DNA of 64,000 nt, from assembly GCF_002197755.1 (NCBI RefSeq), contig NZ_NHOT01000003.1, forward strand, positions 124,001 through 188,000. The letters run 5' to 3'. Source of the stretch: Pedobacter sp. AJM. GTDB lineage: Bacteria; Bacteroidota; Bacteroidia; Sphingobacteriales; Sphingobacteriaceae. Below the pieces are notes generated by a model. It was not told the origin of the DNA, did no database searches, and was given only the letters and a program-made list of their open reading frames with translations. Position numbers and translations under genes: made by a program. This document shows, in pieces, positions 11,851 through 20,214 of the stretch. Positions within the stretch are counted from its first letter, which is position 1. Each line of letters opens with the position of its first letter.

Positions 11851-13320
11851 TTATCTCGTATAATTAGGTGCTTCTTTGGTAATGGTGATGTCGTGTGGAT
11901 GACTTTCACGCATCCCGGCTGCTGTAATCTGAACAAATTGTGCTTCCTGTAATGCCTCAATCGTAGCTGCACCGCAGTAGCCCATGCTTGCGCGAAGTCC
12001 GCCGATGTACTGATACATCACCTCTGCCAAAGTACCTTTAAAAGGAACACGACCAACAATTCCTTCCGGAACTAATTTCTTAATATCATCTTCCACATCC
12101 TGGAAATAACGGTCTTTAGAACCTTGCTCCATGGCCTCAATAGAACCCATTCCACGGTAAGATTTAAATTTACGTCCTTCGTAGATAATGGTTTCACCTG
12201 GAGACTCTTCTACTCCGGCGAATAACGAACCAGCCATTACCGTATCTGCACCAGAAGCAATTGCTTTTGCGATATCGCCAGTGTGTTTAATACCACCATC
12301 GGCAATTACCGGAACACCTGTTCCTTTTAATGCCTTAGCACATTCGTAAACGGCATATAATTGTGGCACACCTACACCAGCAATAATTCTGGTGGTACAA
12401 ATTGAGCCCGGACCAATACCCACTTTAACGGCATCAGCACCAGCATCTGCTAAAAACTTAGCTGCTGCACCGGTAGCAATATTACCAACAATTACCTGCA
12501 AATCAGGATATTTTGCTTTTACTTCTTTTAATTTATCAACAACACCTTTCGAATGCCCGTGAGCGGTATCAATAGTAATGACATCAACACCCGCACTAAC
12601 CAAAGCATCAACTCGCTGAAGGGTATCGGCAGTTACGCCAACCGCGGCACCAACACGTAAGCGACCACGTTCATCTTTACAGGCAGCAGGGTAATTTTTT
12701 ACTTTTGAAATATCTTTGAAAGTGATTAAACCACTTAAATAACCATCTTTAGAAACAACTGGCAATTTCTCGATTTTATAATTTTGAAGAATTTCTTCTG
12801 CCTGTACCAGGTTTGTTCCTTCCGGGGCAGTGATCAGATTTTCTTTTGTCATGACTTCAGCAATTGGCCTCGCCATATTTTTCTGGAACCGCAAATCACG
12901 GTTGGTGATAATGCCAACCAATTTATTATCGCTACTCACTACCGGAATGCCACCAATTTTGTGTTCTTTCATAATTTTGAAAGCATCGGCAACTACCGCG
13001 GTTTCTAACAAAGTAACCGGATCCTGAATCATTCCGCTTTCTGAACGTTTAACCTTACGAACTTCTTCGGCTTGTCTGTCGATCGTCATGTTTTTGTGCA
13101 ACATCCCGATACCACCATTTTGCGCAATGGCAATGGCTAGTTCAGCTTCTGTTACCGTATCCATTGCAGCAGAAATCAATGGGACGTTAAGCTTAATTTT
13201 TTTAGTTAAGAAAGTGGCTGTATTTACATCGCGGGGAAGAATTTCAGAATATGCGGGTACCAGAAGTACGTCGTCATAAGTTAAACCTGTTGCAATAAAT
13301 TTTGTGGAGTCGAGTTGCAT
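11851..13320 (-). CDS. guaB: Inosine-5'-monophosphate dehydrogenase
   Basis: A 489-residue enzyme that oxidises IMP to XMP, the committed step of GMP synthesis. The catalytic loop GSICTTR puts the nucleophilic Cys at about residue 306. Two CBS domains lie between about residues 95 and 215 ([38 protein letters not shown]). The flap motif is [11 protein letters not shown]. The frame is open upstream to 13491, but homologues start at MQLDSTKF, whose ATG is at 13318-13320 behind a good promoter; that start is used here. Confidence 0.96.
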
Positions 13321-13352
13321 AGCAAATAAATTACGATTTATTATTTGCCAGG

Positions 13353-13383
13353 CAAAGATAAGATAAATAAGTTGATTTCTAAA
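13353..13383 (-). promoter_or_regulatory. Promoter of guaB
   Basis: The minus strand has TATCTTTG (-7) with TTTA, one base off the TTTG -33 box, 19 bases further upstream. It would give a leader of about 25 bases, supporting the start at 13320. Confidence 0.55.
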
Positions 13384-13417
13384 ACTAGATTGTGTTTTGG
13401 AAATGTAAAAAGGAAAT

Positions 13418-13445
13418 AAAAAAGCCCCGCAGATAGGCGAGGCGC
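13418..13445 (-). terminator. Orphan minus-strand terminator
   Basis: On the minus strand GCCTCGC pairs with GCGGGGC (one G-T pair) and is followed by TTTTTT. It sits upstream of the guaB promoter, and no minus-strand gene now lies to its right, because the next gene is cas9 on the plus strand. It may be the leftover of a displaced gene. Confidence 0.55.
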
Positions 13446-13509
13446 TAAATGTTTTCACAACGGAATAATCCTTATTGTGATTTGCTTTCAAGTCAAAGAT
13501 ATAATTAAT

Positions 13510-13647: not shown

Positions 13648-16600
13648 ATGAAGAAAATATTAGGACTTGATTTAGGAACAACATCTATTGGTTTTGCATA
13701 TGTAAAAGAAAGTGATGATTTATCAAATTCTTCTATTGAAAAAATTGGTGTTCGAGTAAATCCACTAATTACAGATGAGCAAACCAACTTTGAAAAGGGC
13801 AAGCCTATTACTATTAATGCAGACAGAACATTAAAACGAGGAGCAAGGAGAACACTAGACCGTTACCAACTCAGGCGTTCTAATTTAATTTATGCATTAG
13901 CCAAAGCAAATATCATTACTAATGATACCATCCTGGCAGAAGATGGAAAAAATACTACTCATTCTACTTTTGCACTAAGGGCAAAATCTGCTGTTGAGAA
14001 AGTAGAAAAAGATGAGTTTGCAAGGATTCTATTAGCCATAAATAAAAAGAGAGGTTACAAAAGTAGTCGTAAGGCTAATAATGAAGATGAGGGCCAGGCG
14101 ATTGATGGAATGTTAAATGCTAAAAAATTATATGATGAAAATTTAACTCCTGGTCAACTCTCCTATCAATTACTAATAGAAGGAAAGAAACAATTACCAG
14201 ACTTTTATCGATCTGATTTACAGGCAGAACTTGATAAAGTGTGGGAATTTCAGAAACAATTTCATCCTGAAATTTTAACAGATCAATTTAAAAAAGAATT
14301 GATTGGAAAAGGGCAACGAGCAACATCTGCTATTTTTTGGAAAACATACAATTTCAATACTTCAGATATAAAAGGCAGTAGAGAAGAAAAAAAATTAAAA
14401 GCTTACGAATGGCGAAATAACGCGATCAGTCAACAATTAGATAAAGAAGAAGTTGCCTATGTAATTACGGAGATCAACAATAATTTAAATAATTCTAGTG
14501 GTTATCTTGGTGCAATTAGCGACAGAAGTAAAGAATTATATTTTAATAAACAGACTGTTGGTCAGTACTTGTATAAACAAATTCAGGATAATCCACATGC
14601 AAGATTAAAAAATCAAGTGTTCTATCGCCAGGATTATTTTGATGAGTTTGAAACCATTTGGGAAACGCAATCAAAGTTTCATCCCGAGTTAACGGAAGAA
14701 TTAAAAAAAGAAATTCGGGATATTATTATTTTTTATCAACGAAAATTAAAATCACAGAAAGGTCTGGTTAGTTTTTGCGAATTTGAAAATAAAGAGATTG
14801 AGATTGATAGAAATGGACAAAAAGTTAAAAAAACTATTGGTTTAAAAGTTGCGCCGAAATCTTCTCCCCTATTTCAGGAATTTAAGATTTGGCAGGTACT
14901 TAACAATGTGCTCATCAGAAAAAAAGGCAGCAAAAAGCGTGTACTTAAAGATGCCAATCAAGAAGAAATTTTCAGCTTAAGCTTAGAAGATAAACAAGCT
15001 TTGTTCAACGAATTAAACATCAAAGGAAATTTAAAAGCCAATAAGATTATCGAATTACTGGGCCGGGATACCAAAGAATGGGAGATCAATTATAGTGAGA
15101 TTGAAGGCAATCGAACCAATAAAGCTTTTTATGATGCATATCTTAAAATATTGGAAACAGAAGGTTATAATGAAGATTTATTAAAACTATCTGACAAAGA
15201 TGAAATTAATATTACCGAATTAAGCACACCCGTGGCAGAAATCAAAGATATGATTAAGCGTATTTTTGAAGTTTTAGAAATCGACCAAAATGTTTTAGAA
15301 TTCGATGCAGAGTTAGATGGTAAGGATTTTGAACAACAGCCATCTTATCAGTTGTGGCACTTACTATATGCTTATGAGGGAGATAATTCTGCAAGTGGTA
15401 ATGATAAATTGCACGATTTACTCGTAAAAAAGTTCTGTTTTAAAAAAGAGCATGCTAAAATTTTAGCTAACGTAAGTTTATCTGATGATTATGGGAACTT
15501 AAGTGCTAAAGCGATACGAAAAATCTATCCATATATAAGAGAATTACAATATGATAAGGCTTGCTTTCAGGCTGGCTATAAACATTCTGCCTCATCATTA
15601 ACTAAAGAAGAAATTGCCAATCGACCATTAAAAGACAAGTTAGATTTACTAAAGAAAAATAGCTTACGTAATCCTGTTGTTGAGAAAATCCTTAATCAGG
15701 TAGTTAATGTAGTAAATACTTTAATTGAAACGAACAGTGAAAAAGATGCAGATGGCAAAATTATTAAACACTTCAAATTTGATGAAATAAGAATTGAGCT
15801 GGCTAGAGATTTAAAGAAAAATGCAAAAGAGCGGGCAGAAATGACCACAAATATCAATTCGGCAAAAATTGCTCATGAAAAGATTTTCAAACTATTGCAA
15901 ACAGAATTCGGCGTAAAAAATCCAACCAGAAATGATATAATTAGATACAAGCTTTACGAAGAATTAAAAAACAATGGATACAAGGATTTATATACAAATA
16001 CCTATATCGCAAGAGAAATCTTATTTAGTAAACAAATAGATATTGATCACATTATTCCTCAATCCAAAGTATTTGATGATAGCTTTTCTAATAAAACGGT
16101 AATTTTTAGAAAAAATAATTTAGATAAAGGAAATAAAACTGCTTATGATTATGTAGATAGCAAATTTGGAAAAGATAAACTAGCTGATTTTGAGCAGAGG
16201 ATAGAATTTCTTTTTGAGCAAGGTAAAAAAAATAAAGAAGAGGGAATTTCAAAAGCTAAATATCAGAAATTATTAAAAATGGAAGCTGAAATTGGTGATG
16301 GCTTTGTTGAACGTGATTTAAGAGATAGCCAGTACATTGCAAAGAAAGCAAGAAACATGCTTTATGAAATCTGTAGAGTTGTTACACCCACAACCGGAAG
16401 TATAACTGATAAACTTCGATCAGACTGGGATTTAATCAATATTATGCAAGAACTCAATTTCGATAAGTTTAAGAAATTAGGTTTAACTGAACAGGTAGAG
16501 AAAAAAGATGGCAGTTTTAAAGAACGTATTATCGATTGGAGTAAACGAAACGACCATCGGCACCATGCCATGGATGCCTTAACCATTGCTTTTACGAAAC

Positions 16601-17919
16601 AAAGCCATATTCAATACCTCAACTTTTTAAATGCCAGAAAAAATGAAAATCACAAAGAACATAACGCCATTATTGGTATTGAAGGCAAAGAAACTACTTG
16701 GAGATACGATGATGAGGGAAACAAAAAGCGTGTATTTAATTTGCCATTACAAAATTTCAGAGAAGAAGCCAAAAGGCATTTAGAAAATGTATTGGTTTCG
16801 TTCAAAGCAAAAAATAAGGTAGTCACCAAAAACAAGAACAAAACTAAATCTGCCAAAGGCGAAAAAACAAAAATTGAACTTACTCCAAGAGGGCAATTAC
16901 ATAAAGAAACGGTTTATGGGAAGTATCAATACTATGTTAGCAAAGAAGAGAAAGTAAGCATTAAATTTGATCAGGACACAATTAATAAAGTGTCGAATCC
17001 AACTTATAAAAAGCTTTTATCACAACGTTTAGCAGAACATAGTAACGATCCTAAAAAGGCTTTTACTGGAAAAAATACATTAGTCAAAAACCCTATTTAT
17101 TTAGACAATAATAAAACGGAAATCTTACCCGAAACGGTAAAGCTAATCTGGTTAAAAGATGATTACTCAATAAGAAAAGACATCACTCCTGATAATTTCA
17201 AGGATACTAAAATTATTGAGAAGATTTTAGATGAGGATATAAAGCGCATTTTAAAACAAAGATTAGAAGAATACAATAATAACACGAAAGATGCTTTTTC
17301 TGATTTAGATAAAAATCCAATTTGGCTGAATAAGGAAAAGGGTATTTCAATTAAAAAGGTTAAGATTAGTGGCGTTAACAATGCAGAAGCTTTACATTAT
17401 AAAAAAGATCATTTAGGTAATGAGATTTTAGATGAGAATAACAAACGAATACCTGTTGACTTTGTAAGTACTGGTAATAATCATCATGTAGCAATTTACA
17501 AAGACGAAAAGGGCAATTTACAGGAAAGAGTAGTTTCGCTTTTTGATGCCATTCAATTAGTAAACGATAGAGAACCAGTTATATCTAAAGATTATAACCA
17601 AGGTTTAGGATGGCAATTTTTATTTACCATGAAACAAAATGAATACTTTATTTTCCCTAATGAACAAACTGGTTTCGATCCTAAAAGTATTGATTTATTA
17701 GACCCTAAAAACAATAAGGAAATTAGCCTTAACTTATTTAGAGTACAGAAAATTGCCACAAAAGATTATTTTTTCAGACACCATCTTGAAACTAATGTTG
17801 AAGATAACTCAAAATTAAAAGGGACAACCTGGAGAAGAGAAGGTTTAGGAGGAATTGGTAAAATTATTAAGGTTCGTATAAACCATATCGGTGAAATTGT
17901 AAAAATAGGAGAATATTAA
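13648..17919 (+). CDS. cas9: CRISPR-associated endonuclease Cas9, type II-C
   Basis: A 1423-residue RNA-guided DNA endonuclease. RuvC-I is at the N-terminus (ILGLDLGTTSIGFA, catalytic Asp8). An arginine-rich bridge helix follows at about residues 53-75 (LKRGARRTLDRYQLRR). RuvC-II has IRIELARD (Glu717), and the HNH domain has DIDHIIPQS (Asp800, His801) with KNNLDKGNKT. RuvC-III has DHRHHAMDALTIAF (His973, Asp976). The rest is the C-terminal PAM-interacting region. All nuclease residues are intact, so it should cut both strands. The length is typical of large Bacteroidota Cas9 proteins. The gene is more AT-rich than cas1 and cas2. With no csn2 or cas4 nearby, the locus is type II-C. Confidence 0.97.
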   Translation: MKKILGLDLGTTSIGFAYVKESDDLSNSSIEKIGVRVNPLITDEQTNFEKGKPITINADRTLKRGARRTLDRYQLRRSNLIYALAKANIITNDTILAEDGKNTTHSTFALRAKSAVEKVEKDEFARILLAINKKRGYKSSRKANNEDEGQAIDGMLNAKKLYDENLTPGQLSYQLLIEGKKQLPDFYRSDLQAELDKVWEFQKQFHPEILTDQFKKELIGKGQRATSAIFWKTYNFNTSDIKGSREEKKLKAYEWRNNAISQQLDKEEVAYVITEINNNLNNSSGYLGAISDRSKELYFNKQTVGQYLYKQIQDNPHARLKNQVFYRQDYFDEFETIWETQSKFHPELTEELKKEIRDIIIFYQRKLKSQKGLVSFCEFENKEIEIDRNGQKVKKTIGLKVAPKSSPLFQEFKIWQVLNNVLIRKKGSKKRVLKDANQEEIFSLSLEDKQALFNELNIKGNLKANKIIELLGRDTKEWEINYSEIEGNRTNKAFYDAYLKILETEGYNEDLLKLSDKDEINITELSTPVAEIKDMIKRIFEVLEIDQNVLEFDAELDGKDFEQQPSYQLWHLLYAYEGDNSASGNDKLHDLLVKKFCFKKEHAKILANVSLSDDYGNLSAKAIRKIYPYIRELQYDKACFQAGYKHSASSLTKEEIANRPLKDKLDLLKKNSLRNPVVEKILNQVVNVVNTLIETNSEKDADGKIIKHFKFDEIRIELARDLKKNAKERAEMTTNINSAKIAHEKIFKLLQTEFGVKNPTRNDIIRYKLYEELKNNGYKDLYTNTYIAREILFSKQIDIDHIIPQSKVFDDSFSNKTVIFRKNNLDKGNKTAYDYVDSKFGKDKLADFEQRIEFLFEQGKKNKEEGISKAKYQKLLKMEAEIGDGFVERDLRDSQYIAKKARNMLYEICRVVTPTTGSITDKLRSDWDLINIMQELNFDKFKKLGLTEQVEKKDGSFKERIIDWSKRNDHRHHAMDALTIAFTKQSHIQYLNFLNARKNENHKEHNAIIGIEGKETTWRYDDEGNKKRVFNLPLQNFREEAKRHLENVLVSFKAKNKVVTKNKNKTKSAKGEKTKIELTPRGQLHKETVYGKYQYYVSKEEKVSIKFDQDTINKVSNPTYKKLLSQRLAEHSNDPKKAFTGKNTLVKNPIYLDNNKTEILPETVKLIWLKDDYSIRKDITPDNFKDTKIIEKILDEDIKRILKQRLEEYNNNTKDAFSDLDKNPIWLNKEKGISIKKVKISGVNNAEALHYKKDHLGNEILDENNKRIPVDFVSTGNNHHVAIYKDEKGNLQERVVSLFDAIQLVNDREPVISKDYNQGLGWQFLFTMKQNEYFIFPNEQTGFDPKSIDLLDPKNNKEISLNLFRVQKIATKDYFFRHHLETNVEDNSKLKGTTWRREGLGGIGKIIKVRINHIGEIVKIGEY

Positions 17920-18145
17920 TCAGAAAATATTGCTAAACAAATAACAAGCCACTCCTAAAACTTCTTCCACAAAAAAACCGCGAATTTCGACGAGGGAAGA
18001 TTTAATCAGAATGGTTGCACCTGGAAAGAGGTGTTTCCTATGCTTTTTAATACGCTCGGTTCTTCGCGGTACCATCTGTCGTATGTTTAAGCAAAGGGCC
18101 ACCTTTTTCTGGGTGTTTAATTTAAAACATTAAACCCCAACGCTC
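17920..18145. other. Gap between cas9 and the adaptation genes
   Basis: 226 bases with no recognisable gene, hairpin terminator or anti-repeat. It is visibly richer in GC than cas9. Cas operons are usually tightly packed, so this gap suggests that cas9 and the nuclease-cas1-cas2 unit could be transcribed separately or were joined by recombination. Confidence 0.4.
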
Positions 18146-18454
18146 ATGCCCTCACTACACTGGATTGGAAAAGAAAAGGTCATCAACCATCATCATGATG
18201 TACCTTTCAATGTTTTATACAAATCAAATCACTATCCTGACTATATTTTATATACACAATCCGGACAAATCATTTTATTAGAAACTAAAGGCGATGACAG
18301 GGATAATTCTGACAGTCAATCTAAATGTAGATTAGGAAATAAATGGGCTGAGCTGGCCGGAGAAAGGTTTAACTATTTCATGGTTTTCGAAAATAATCAG
18401 GTAGATGGCACATTTAGTGTCAGCAAAGCATTAACACTGATAAAAGAATTATAA
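18146..18454 (+). CDS. PD-(D/E)XK nuclease-like protein in the cas operon
   Basis: A 102-residue ORF ending one base before the cas1 ATG, so it is almost certainly co-transcribed with cas1 and cas2. Residues 30-48 form a PD-(D/E)XK core: Y-P-D32-Y, then a beta strand, then L-L-E46-T-K48. The following KGDDRDNSDSQSK and LGNKWAELAG...YFMVFEN resemble the C-terminal nuclease end of type III restriction/helicase proteins. The first 24 residues (MPSLHWIGKEKVINHHHDVPF) instead resemble the N-terminus of type III DNA methyltransferases. It may be a fused relic of a restriction-modification locus, or a real small nuclease adopted by the CRISPR operon. The reading frame is intact. It is not a standard type II-C gene. 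Confidence 0.6.
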   Translation: MPSLHWIGKEKVINHHHDVPFNVLYKSNHYPDYILYTQSGQIILLETKGDDRDNSDSQSKCRLGNKWAELAGERFNYFMVFENNQVDGTFSVSKALTLIKEL

Positions 18455-18455
18455 G

Positions 18456-19484
18456 ATGATCAAAAGGACACTTCATTTTAGCAATCCGGCCTATTTAAGT
18501 CTGCAAAAAAATCAGCTAGCTATCGATTTACCACACTTAAAATCGCTTGGAGAGCAGGAATCAAAAAAATCTATTCCGATAGAAGACATTGGCATTATCA
18601 TTTTAGACAATCAGCAAATAACCATTACCCACGGATGCATTGCGGCTTTATTGGAAAATAATGCGGCCATCATCACCTGTAATCAAAGTCGTCATCCTAC
18701 CGGGATGATGCTGCCTATAGACGGTCATAACACCCAAAGTGAACGGTTCCGCTATCAGATTGACGCTTCGCAACCGCTTAAAAAACAACTGTGGCAACAA
18801 ACCGTTCAAGCTAAAATTCTAAATCAGGCAGCTGTACTTTTCAATCGAGGCATTGCCTGCGACAATATGGTGCATTTGGCCAAATCAGTTCGTTCTGGAG
18901 ACCCTGATAATTATGAAGGCCGGGCCGCAGCCTATTACTGGAAAAATGTATTTCCTAAAAAGTTAGACTTCTTTCGTGGCCGGGAGGGCGATCCACCTAA
19001 TAATCTACTTAATTATGGCTATGCAATTTTAAGAGCTATTGTTGCCCGTGGATTGGTTTGTTCGGGCCTGCTCCCTACTCTGGGCATACACCACCGGAAT
19101 AAATACAACGCCTATTGTCTGGCGGATGATATTATGGAACCTTATAGGCCTTATGTTGATGAGATCGTTTTAGGAATTATAGATAGAGGCGAAAACTTTT
19201 TAGAATTGGGAACTTCTATTAAAATGCAGCTTTTGGGGATTGCTACCGCTGATGTACAATTTCAGAAAAGCAAAAGTCCGCTGATGGTTGGATTACAGAG
19301 CACAACTTCTTCTCTGGCGAGATGTTATGAAGGAACGACTCGAAAAATCATCTATCCAATGATGAAAAACTTCGATACCAGGCGGCCATATAATTATAAT
19401 TTTTCTAATGAGCTTTCCATCATGAATAGTGAAAATTTGGAAGCTACCGGTCAAAATACTAGCGAAGACAAATTACCTTTTTAA
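18456..19484 (+). CDS. cas1: CRISPR integrase Cas1
   Basis: A 342-residue type II Cas1, the catalytic subunit of the Cas1-Cas2 spacer integrase. The metal-binding residues are Glu154 (YEGRAAAYYWKNVFP), His212 (LGIHHRNKYNAYCLADDIMEPYR) and the acidic pair near residue 226. It is longer than the roughly 300 residues usual for type II-C, because of a C-terminal tail of about 40 residues after the last helix. It begins one base after the nuclease-like ORF and ends three bases before cas2, so the three genes form one unit. Confidence 0.95.
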   Translation: MIKRTLHFSNPAYLSLQKNQLAIDLPHLKSLGEQESKKSIPIEDIGIIILDNQQITITHGCIAALLENNAAIITCNQSRHPTGMMLPIDGHNTQSERFRYQIDASQPLKKQLWQQTVQAKILNQAAVLFNRGIACDNMVHLAKSVRSGDPDNYEGRAAAYYWKNVFPKKLDFFRGREGDPPNNLLNYGYAILRAIVARGLVCSGLLPTLGIHHRNKYNAYCLADDIMEPYRPYVDEIVLGIIDRGENFLELGTSIKMQLLGIATADVQFQKSKSPLMVGLQSTTSSLARCYEGTTRKIIYPMMKNFDTRRPYNYNFSNELSIMNSENLEATGQNTSEDKLPF

Positions 19485-19817
<333 letters not shown>

Positions 19818-19886: not shown

Positions 19887-19939
19887 AATTCTAATTTTTG
19901 AACTAACCTACTGACGGATAGTTATTTGAAACCATGTAT

Positions 19940-20214
19940 GTTGTTGTAAATATCAGTAGTTCAAAGAATGAAAGCAAATCACAACTGGAAAAACCAATTG
20001 TCCGCACGGTGGCGAGTTGTTGTAAATATCAGTAGTTCAAAGAATGAAAGCAAATCACAACAAGTTACTTTAATATCCGCACCAGCAGATCGTTGTTGTA
20101 AATATCAGTAGTTCAAAGAATGAAAGCAAATCGCTACCAAGGACCAACCGGAAAGCACGGTATTGCAGTTATTGTAAATATCAGCAGTTCGGCAGCATTC
20201 AAGCAAATTACGAC
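19940..20214. CRISPR. Short type II-C CRISPR array (3 repeats plus 1 degenerate)
   Basis: Repeats of 46 bases begin at 19940, 20016 and 20092, exactly 76 bases apart, with 30-base spacers at 19986-20015 and 20062-20091. The third repeat loses its last bases after 20132. A fourth, strongly diverged copy begins at 20168, again in the 76-base register. On the plus strand the repeats start GTTGTTGTAAATATC; on the minus strand they start GTTGTGATTTGCTTTC, which looks like typical Bacteroidota type II-C repeats. The decayed end faces away from cas2, so the leader side is probably the cas2 side. Confidence 0.95.

Follow-up and report, generated by a model that had tools for sequence, protein, structure and literature searches.

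A 102-codon open reading frame between cas9 and cas1 of a Pedobacter type II-C CRISPR locus is the probable stump of a type III restriction-modification pair

What is a 102-codon open reading frame (ORF) with PD-(D/E)XK nuclease residues doing between the cas9 and cas1 genes of a type II-C CRISPR-Cas locus? The question is raised by a 64,000-nucleotide stretch of the genome of Pedobacter sp. AJM (contig NZ_NHOT01000003.1, positions 124,001 to 188,000), hereafter the window, whose initial annotation considered the ORF either a fossil of a restriction-modification (R-M) locus or a small nuclease recruited to handle spacers or to aid interference. We conclude, with a probability of roughly 90%, that the ORF is what remains of a type III R-M pair (mod-res) that ancestrally lay between cas9 and cas1, from which about 3.96 kb was lost and whose ends were fused in frame.

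Results

The ORF joins the two ends of a mod-res pair

The ORF spans 18146-18454 on the plus strand, from an ATG to a TAA that a single base separates from the cas1 ATG at 18456, which confirms the intact frame and the position reported in the initial annotation. The cas9, cas1 and cas2 genes of the window are intact and match TIGR01865, TIGR03639 and TIGR01573, respectively, in profile searches (Table 1). With the gene order cas9-cas1-cas2-array, 46-bp repeats and neither csn2 nor cas4, the locus resembles other type II-C systems, from which it differs by the R-M stump directly upstream of cas1, where relatives add a full R-M pair. The window array is the smallest among the close relatives where an array was found in the examined stretch.

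A search with PADLOC profiles agreed with the split similarity to the Mod N-terminus and the Res C-terminus described at the outset. A type III methyltransferase profile (542 aa) is matched over its positions 1-27 by residues 1-27 of the ORF (E 3e-8), and a type III restriction enzyme profile (898 aa) over its positions 823-885 by residues 28-88 (E 3e-4); each half matches its own end of Mod or Res only. When 99 relatives were searched, both halves were found about 4 kb apart in Pedobacter psychrotolerans DSM 103236, with weaker matches in two further genomes (G033 and G008). The P. psychrotolerans locus reads guaB, cas9, mod (549 aa), res (871 aa), cas1 and cas2 and, since guaB adjoins cas9 in both genomes, it is orthologous to the window locus. 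This species is the nearest relative found with an intact mod-res at this site. The two halves of the ORF show 79-82% amino acid identity to the two ends of this genuine pair, well beyond what chance would give, aligning to mod codons 1-27 and res codons 794-871, and a single base separates the res stop from the cas1 start, exactly as it separates the ORF from cas1 in the window. By arithmetic on the alignment coordinates, 3,959 bp are absent from the window relative to P. psychrotolerans.

A Mod start followed by a Res end is the remnant expected after an internal deletion of an adjacent mod-res pair, and a genome search found no further mod or res match in the window's own genome. The fossil envisaged in the initial annotation thus has an intact counterpart at the orthologous place, of which the ORF represents the first ~26 and the last ~77 codons. 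The ancestor would have held mod-res between cas9 and cas1, as P. psychrotolerans does today; deletion or recombination between short matches near the mod start and the res end would have removed the intervening DNA, and in-frame joining of the two ends would have given the 102-aa ORF.

Table 1. Features of the window and of related loci (window positions unless a locus is named).
Feature	Position	Strand	Evidence or remark
guaB (IMP dehydrogenase)	11851..13491	-	98.9% aa identity to the gene adjoining cas9 in P. psychrotolerans; name from its own sequence
cas9, 1423 aa	13648..17919	+	TIGR01865 E 8.5e-131, HNH_4, RuvC_III; 92% aa identity to P. psychrotolerans Cas9
Non-coding leader of former mod gene	17938..18145	+	contains conserved imperfect hairpin, about 17963-18085
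mod start (codons 1-26), type III DNA methyltransferase	18146..18223	+	PDLC03644 positions 1-27/542, E 3.1e-8; 85% identity to L029:8203-8283 (P. psychrotolerans)
Fusion junction	18214..18232	+	crossover within AAA common to mod (TTTTAAACAAAC) and res (TTTTAAATCAAAC); window/mod/res alignment with P. psychrotolerans
res end (last 77 codons), second half of PD-(D/E)XK nuclease domain with Asp32, Glu46, Lys48	18221..18454	+	81% identity to P. psychrotolerans Res residues 794-871; PDLC03650 positions 823-885/898
cas1, 342 aa	18456..19484	+	TIGR03639 (type II Cas1) E 2.9e-91
cas2, 109 aa	19488..19817	+	TIGR01573 E 7e-20
CRISPR array, four repeats (last degenerate), three spacers, 76-bp period	19939..20190	.	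repeat families D1 and D3 (repeat search)
Hairpin	17963-18085; L029:8020-8142; L057:5507-5630; L042:5512-5635; L127:14246-14369 (-)		window and four related loci
Six intact mod-res loci			P. psychrotolerans, M. pineti, Mucilaginibacter sp. RYN_320, M. straminoryzae, G236, G396
Cargo loci, cas9-cas1 gap, Bacteroidota type II-C			L035, L037, L039, L045, L047, L048, L051, L055, L056, L063, L067, L069, L079, L107, L109

Though non-coding, the leader upstream of the stump shares 95% identity with the P. psychrotolerans mod leader. Its imperfect hairpin (AACCGCGAATTT ... GGTTCKTCGCGGTACCATCTGT) is conserved ahead of mod or its remnant in five of the seven cas1-linked loci; besides the window and P. 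psychrotolerans, M. pineti, M. straminoryzae and G396 have the hairpin core there. Covariation in the hairpin is weak, with an unfavourable covariation term. We regard it as a candidate regulatory leader of the R-M module, or a DNA element belonging to it. A known RNA was rejected as its identity, the sole Rfam matches (Leu_leader) being below threshold and lying around cas2 and the array, outside the leader.

The stump lacks most of both enzymes

Like a type III R-M system of the EcoP15I type (Mod2Res1), the ORF is built from both ends of a mod-res pair, but it retains only about 103 of some 1420 residues. All methylase motifs, the recognition domain and the entire helicase are gone; where a full type III system has methylase motifs, helicase motifs and a nuclease in two full proteins, the window ORF has the ends only. 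The nuclease domain is itself incomplete, with neither the helix nor the first strand that precede the PD motif (P. psychrotolerans Res segment ...ALQNIVFWHRNLSKGKGFNING). In the alignment, everything in Res upstream of ALQNIVFWHRNLSKGKGFNING, and ALQNIVFWHRNLSKGKGFNING itself, is missing from the window and Mod residues stand in its place, so that a PD-(D/E)XK core complete with first helix and full sheet is not found in the ORF. Asp32, Glu46 and Lys48, the residues singled out by the initial annotation, are all there and do not vary across the aligned Res tails.

Structure prediction with AlphaFold gave a poor model of the ORF from a five-sequence alignment (mean pLDDT 60, residues 1-20 below 50), and a second model, from a four-sequence alignment, reached a pLDDT of 42. 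There was no fold match for the ORF model at E<=0.001, and no PDB chain matched Res by sequence. The endonuclease domain of EcoP15I is disordered in its structure (PMC4490356). With every methylase motif, the helicase motor and the domain for DNA recognition gone, and the nuclease core short of its first helix and strand, we infer that the 102-aa protein neither restricts nor methylates DNA and is probably not an active nuclease. Its remaining role, at most, would be that of an open frame through which ribosomes pass from the former start of mod to cas1, whose start follows the ORF stop by one base.

The stump is found in a single genome and lies near a possible recombination boundary

We found the 102-aa form in the window genome alone, that is, in 1 of 145 genomes of the genus and 1 of 400 genomes of the order. 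Every other match is part of a full-length Mod or Res or, in one genome (G450), of a deleted mod. Recurrence between cas9 and cas1 in other genomes was the check proposed in the initial annotation, which had itself named absence from other cas operons as evidence against a recruited nuclease. That suggestion is unsupported on this count and also in view of the missing helicase and first core helix and strand. An independent small nuclease family was rejected because there was no recurrence in these genomes, and a phage origin because viral contigs contained no relative.

The mod gene of G450 (L157) stands alone, away from cas genes, and has its own in-frame internal deletion that joins ~48 N-terminal to ~20 C-terminal residues. 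This would be an independent stump of the same kind, and it may be an artefact, the genome being 79% complete.

Selection on the frame was assessed by comparison with intact Res. The comparison with P. psychrotolerans covers 76 codons and gives a dN of 0.10, its synonymous sites being saturated. A codon model for seven sequences, likewise saturated at synonymous sites, gave a dN/dS of 0.24 for the window and 0.02 for the background; with this saturation the branch test had no power, its likelihood ratio statistics of 0.02 against 1 and 1.9 against the background rejecting neither value. At columns that do not vary among the six intact Res, the window carries three changes of its own; intact M. 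straminoryzae also has three. With its frame open, its three catalytic residues kept and only three private changes, the stump is not obviously decaying, and these data would suit a recent deletion as well as a frame under weak maintenance.

Divergence from P. psychrotolerans is uneven along the locus. Synonymous divergence (dS) is 0.40 for cas9, 0.34 for the mod start and 0.60 for guaB; it exceeds 1.1 for most flanking genes and is above 1.2 or saturated for the res tail, cas1 and cas2. The jump separates 13648-18223 (cas9 and mod start) from 18224-19817 (res tail, cas1 and cas2), and a shift in identity was located near 18256 (maximum chi-square 35.6, 0 of 2000 permutations), while identity between the two genomes is uneven within cas9 too. 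This pattern suggests recombination, with a boundary close to the fusion: a P. psychrotolerans-like donor may have supplied the left part, whose right edge would be the fusion.

Intact mod-res pairs lie beside cas1-cas2 in relatives

By scanning for Cas1 relatives (80 loci) and searching whole genomes, we found mod-res directly upstream of cas1-cas2 in six Pedobacter and Mucilaginibacter species. In all six pairs, Mod has an N6_N4_Mtase domain with DPPY and FxGxG motifs, and Res has ResIII/DEAD helicase motifs, a Walker A, a DExH and a C-terminal PD-(D/E)XK motif; the motifs DPPY, FAGSGT, PTAGGKT, DESH, GRVLRQP and PD..ETKG are kept throughout. The two genes are 1-2 nt apart in every pair, and all six pairs show the motifs of type III R-M. 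We measured dN/dS for one pair, M. pineti/RYN_320, where mod gives 0.055 and res 0.065. The recognition region in the middle of Mod is only 6-39% identical between P. psychrotolerans and M. pineti, against 53-85% for most flanking blocks, the contrast that functioning type III systems should show when their specificity switches. Together, catalytic motifs, low dN/dS in one pair and exchanged recognition domains indicate that the six pairs are working R-M systems. As in ordinary type III R-M, Mod would presumably recognize and methylate sites, and Res would translocate and cut unmodified DNA. Unlike EcoP15I-type systems, the relatives' pair sits inside a cas operon, probably on one transcript with cas1-cas2.

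All loci but that of P. psychrotolerans have a divergent cas9, and since the Cas9s fall in different groups, mod-res keeps to cas1-cas2 and not to cas9. The six Res form one clade (support 100/99) relative to 24 other Bacteroidota Res, among which those of three genomes and a Pontibacter plasmid are 62-64% identical, with no cas genes found adjoining. In contrast, the Cas1 proteins of the same loci are not a clade, requiring at least four changes on the Cas1 tree (AU p 0.0006). The pair has therefore been gained or lost here repeatedly, or has moved between cas loci. In a separate Res lineage (G602), R-M genes lie directly upstream of cas9, in the order mod-res-cas9-cas1-cas2-array (L186:4126-13830).

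The gap between cas9 and cas1 is a slot where defence and toxin-antitoxin-like genes are tolerated or drawn in. Among the 80 Cas1 loci, about 30 hold something there, including DUF6155, nucleotidyltransferases, HIRAN, PemK, PIN, RhuM, DUF3800, PRiA4_ORF3, AAA/DUF4143 and RAYT-like proteins. The RAYT-like proteins resemble REP-associated transposases judging by their sequence; one of them, when searched, had no Pfam match. Such varied cargo weakens any specific link between R-M and adaptation. In a close relative without an insert (G019, L032:11697-12656), in-frame stops follow cas1 within the stretch that aligns to the C-terminus of the window's Cas1.

Discussion

Could the fused ORF be a working mini-nuclease, domesticated for CRISPR, whose Mod-derived start replaces the missing first strand and which trims prespacers for Cas1-Cas2? 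Its PD...ETKG motif is intact in an open frame one base from cas1, and the low-confidence model puts a strand at residues 21-26, ahead of both motif strands. We nevertheless consider this very improbable for an ORF that occurs in only one of the genomes searched, has no Pfam match and only weak, below-cutoff NCBIfam matches, lacks the first helix and strand of the nuclease core and yields weak fold matches only, while the intact P. psychrotolerans neighbour explains it without any function. An assembly error is less credible still, with the fusion inside a 1.2-Mb contig, no other mod or res match in the genome, and sequence on either side that differs from P. psychrotolerans in residues and at synonymous sites, which argues against contamination with that species. 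A tentative proposal, compatible with the stump reading, is that the protein is inert and its frame kept open because cas1 translation needs ribosomes from the ORF (translational coupling or avoidance of polarity). The one-base spacing to cas1, common to the window and P. psychrotolerans, fits such coupling, as does an in-frame fusion of genes that occupy different relative frames; yet a third of random fusions would be in frame anyway, and the gap between res and cas1 is 10 to about 140 bp in some relatives.

Beyond the stump itself, the R-M enzyme and Cas1-Cas2 might be linked in the species with a complete pair, cuts made by Res in unmodified phage DNA supplying ends or fragments for spacer capture, a coupling that the window lineage would have lost. 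Six species have mod-res directly upstream of cas1-cas2 with different Cas9s, and one Res clade on at least four Cas1-tree changes means that the pair meets this position repeatedly. Restriction cleavage is reported to stimulate type II spacer acquisition (Maguin et al. 2022, as cited in PMC12629431). Against this, unrelated cargo also enters the slot, which may simply tolerate insertions, and mod-res is not accompanied by longer arrays (11-109 repeats with it, an overlapping range without). We hold the link to be doubtful, and we are equally reserved about the bolder reading that mod-res-cas1-cas2 works as one composite cassette: its type III restriction enzyme, expressed together with the spacer integrase, would feed the integrase foreign DNA ends and so join innate to adaptive immunity within a single operon, and the window lineage would have lost the restriction half.

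In the literature covered, which was mostly open access, no description of R-M genes within a type II-C cas operon came to light. Large CRISPR surveys (e.g. PMC10910872) likewise describe genes newly linked to CRISPR beside adaptation modules, but the word "restriction" is absent from the main text of that survey, and R-M beside cas1 is not described there. The initial statement that no type II-C locus has such a gene holds for the truncated gene, unique so far, but not for the complete R-M pair, which lies beside cas1 in six relatives.

The ORF itself is an ordinary stump; the wider mod-res-cas1-cas2 arrangement in relatives is less so. It is built of known parts in what would be a new arrangement: in one Bacteroidota family, cas1-cas2 of several backgrounds is directly preceded by a complete type III R-M system, and two immune systems share one gene cluster. 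A functional link of mod-res to spacer acquisition is possible on these sequence data. Such a link is known from separate systems acting in trans; here it could be tested in cis in cultured species that carry the pair (P. psychrotolerans, M. pineti and M. straminoryzae), the window species serving as a natural case of its loss.
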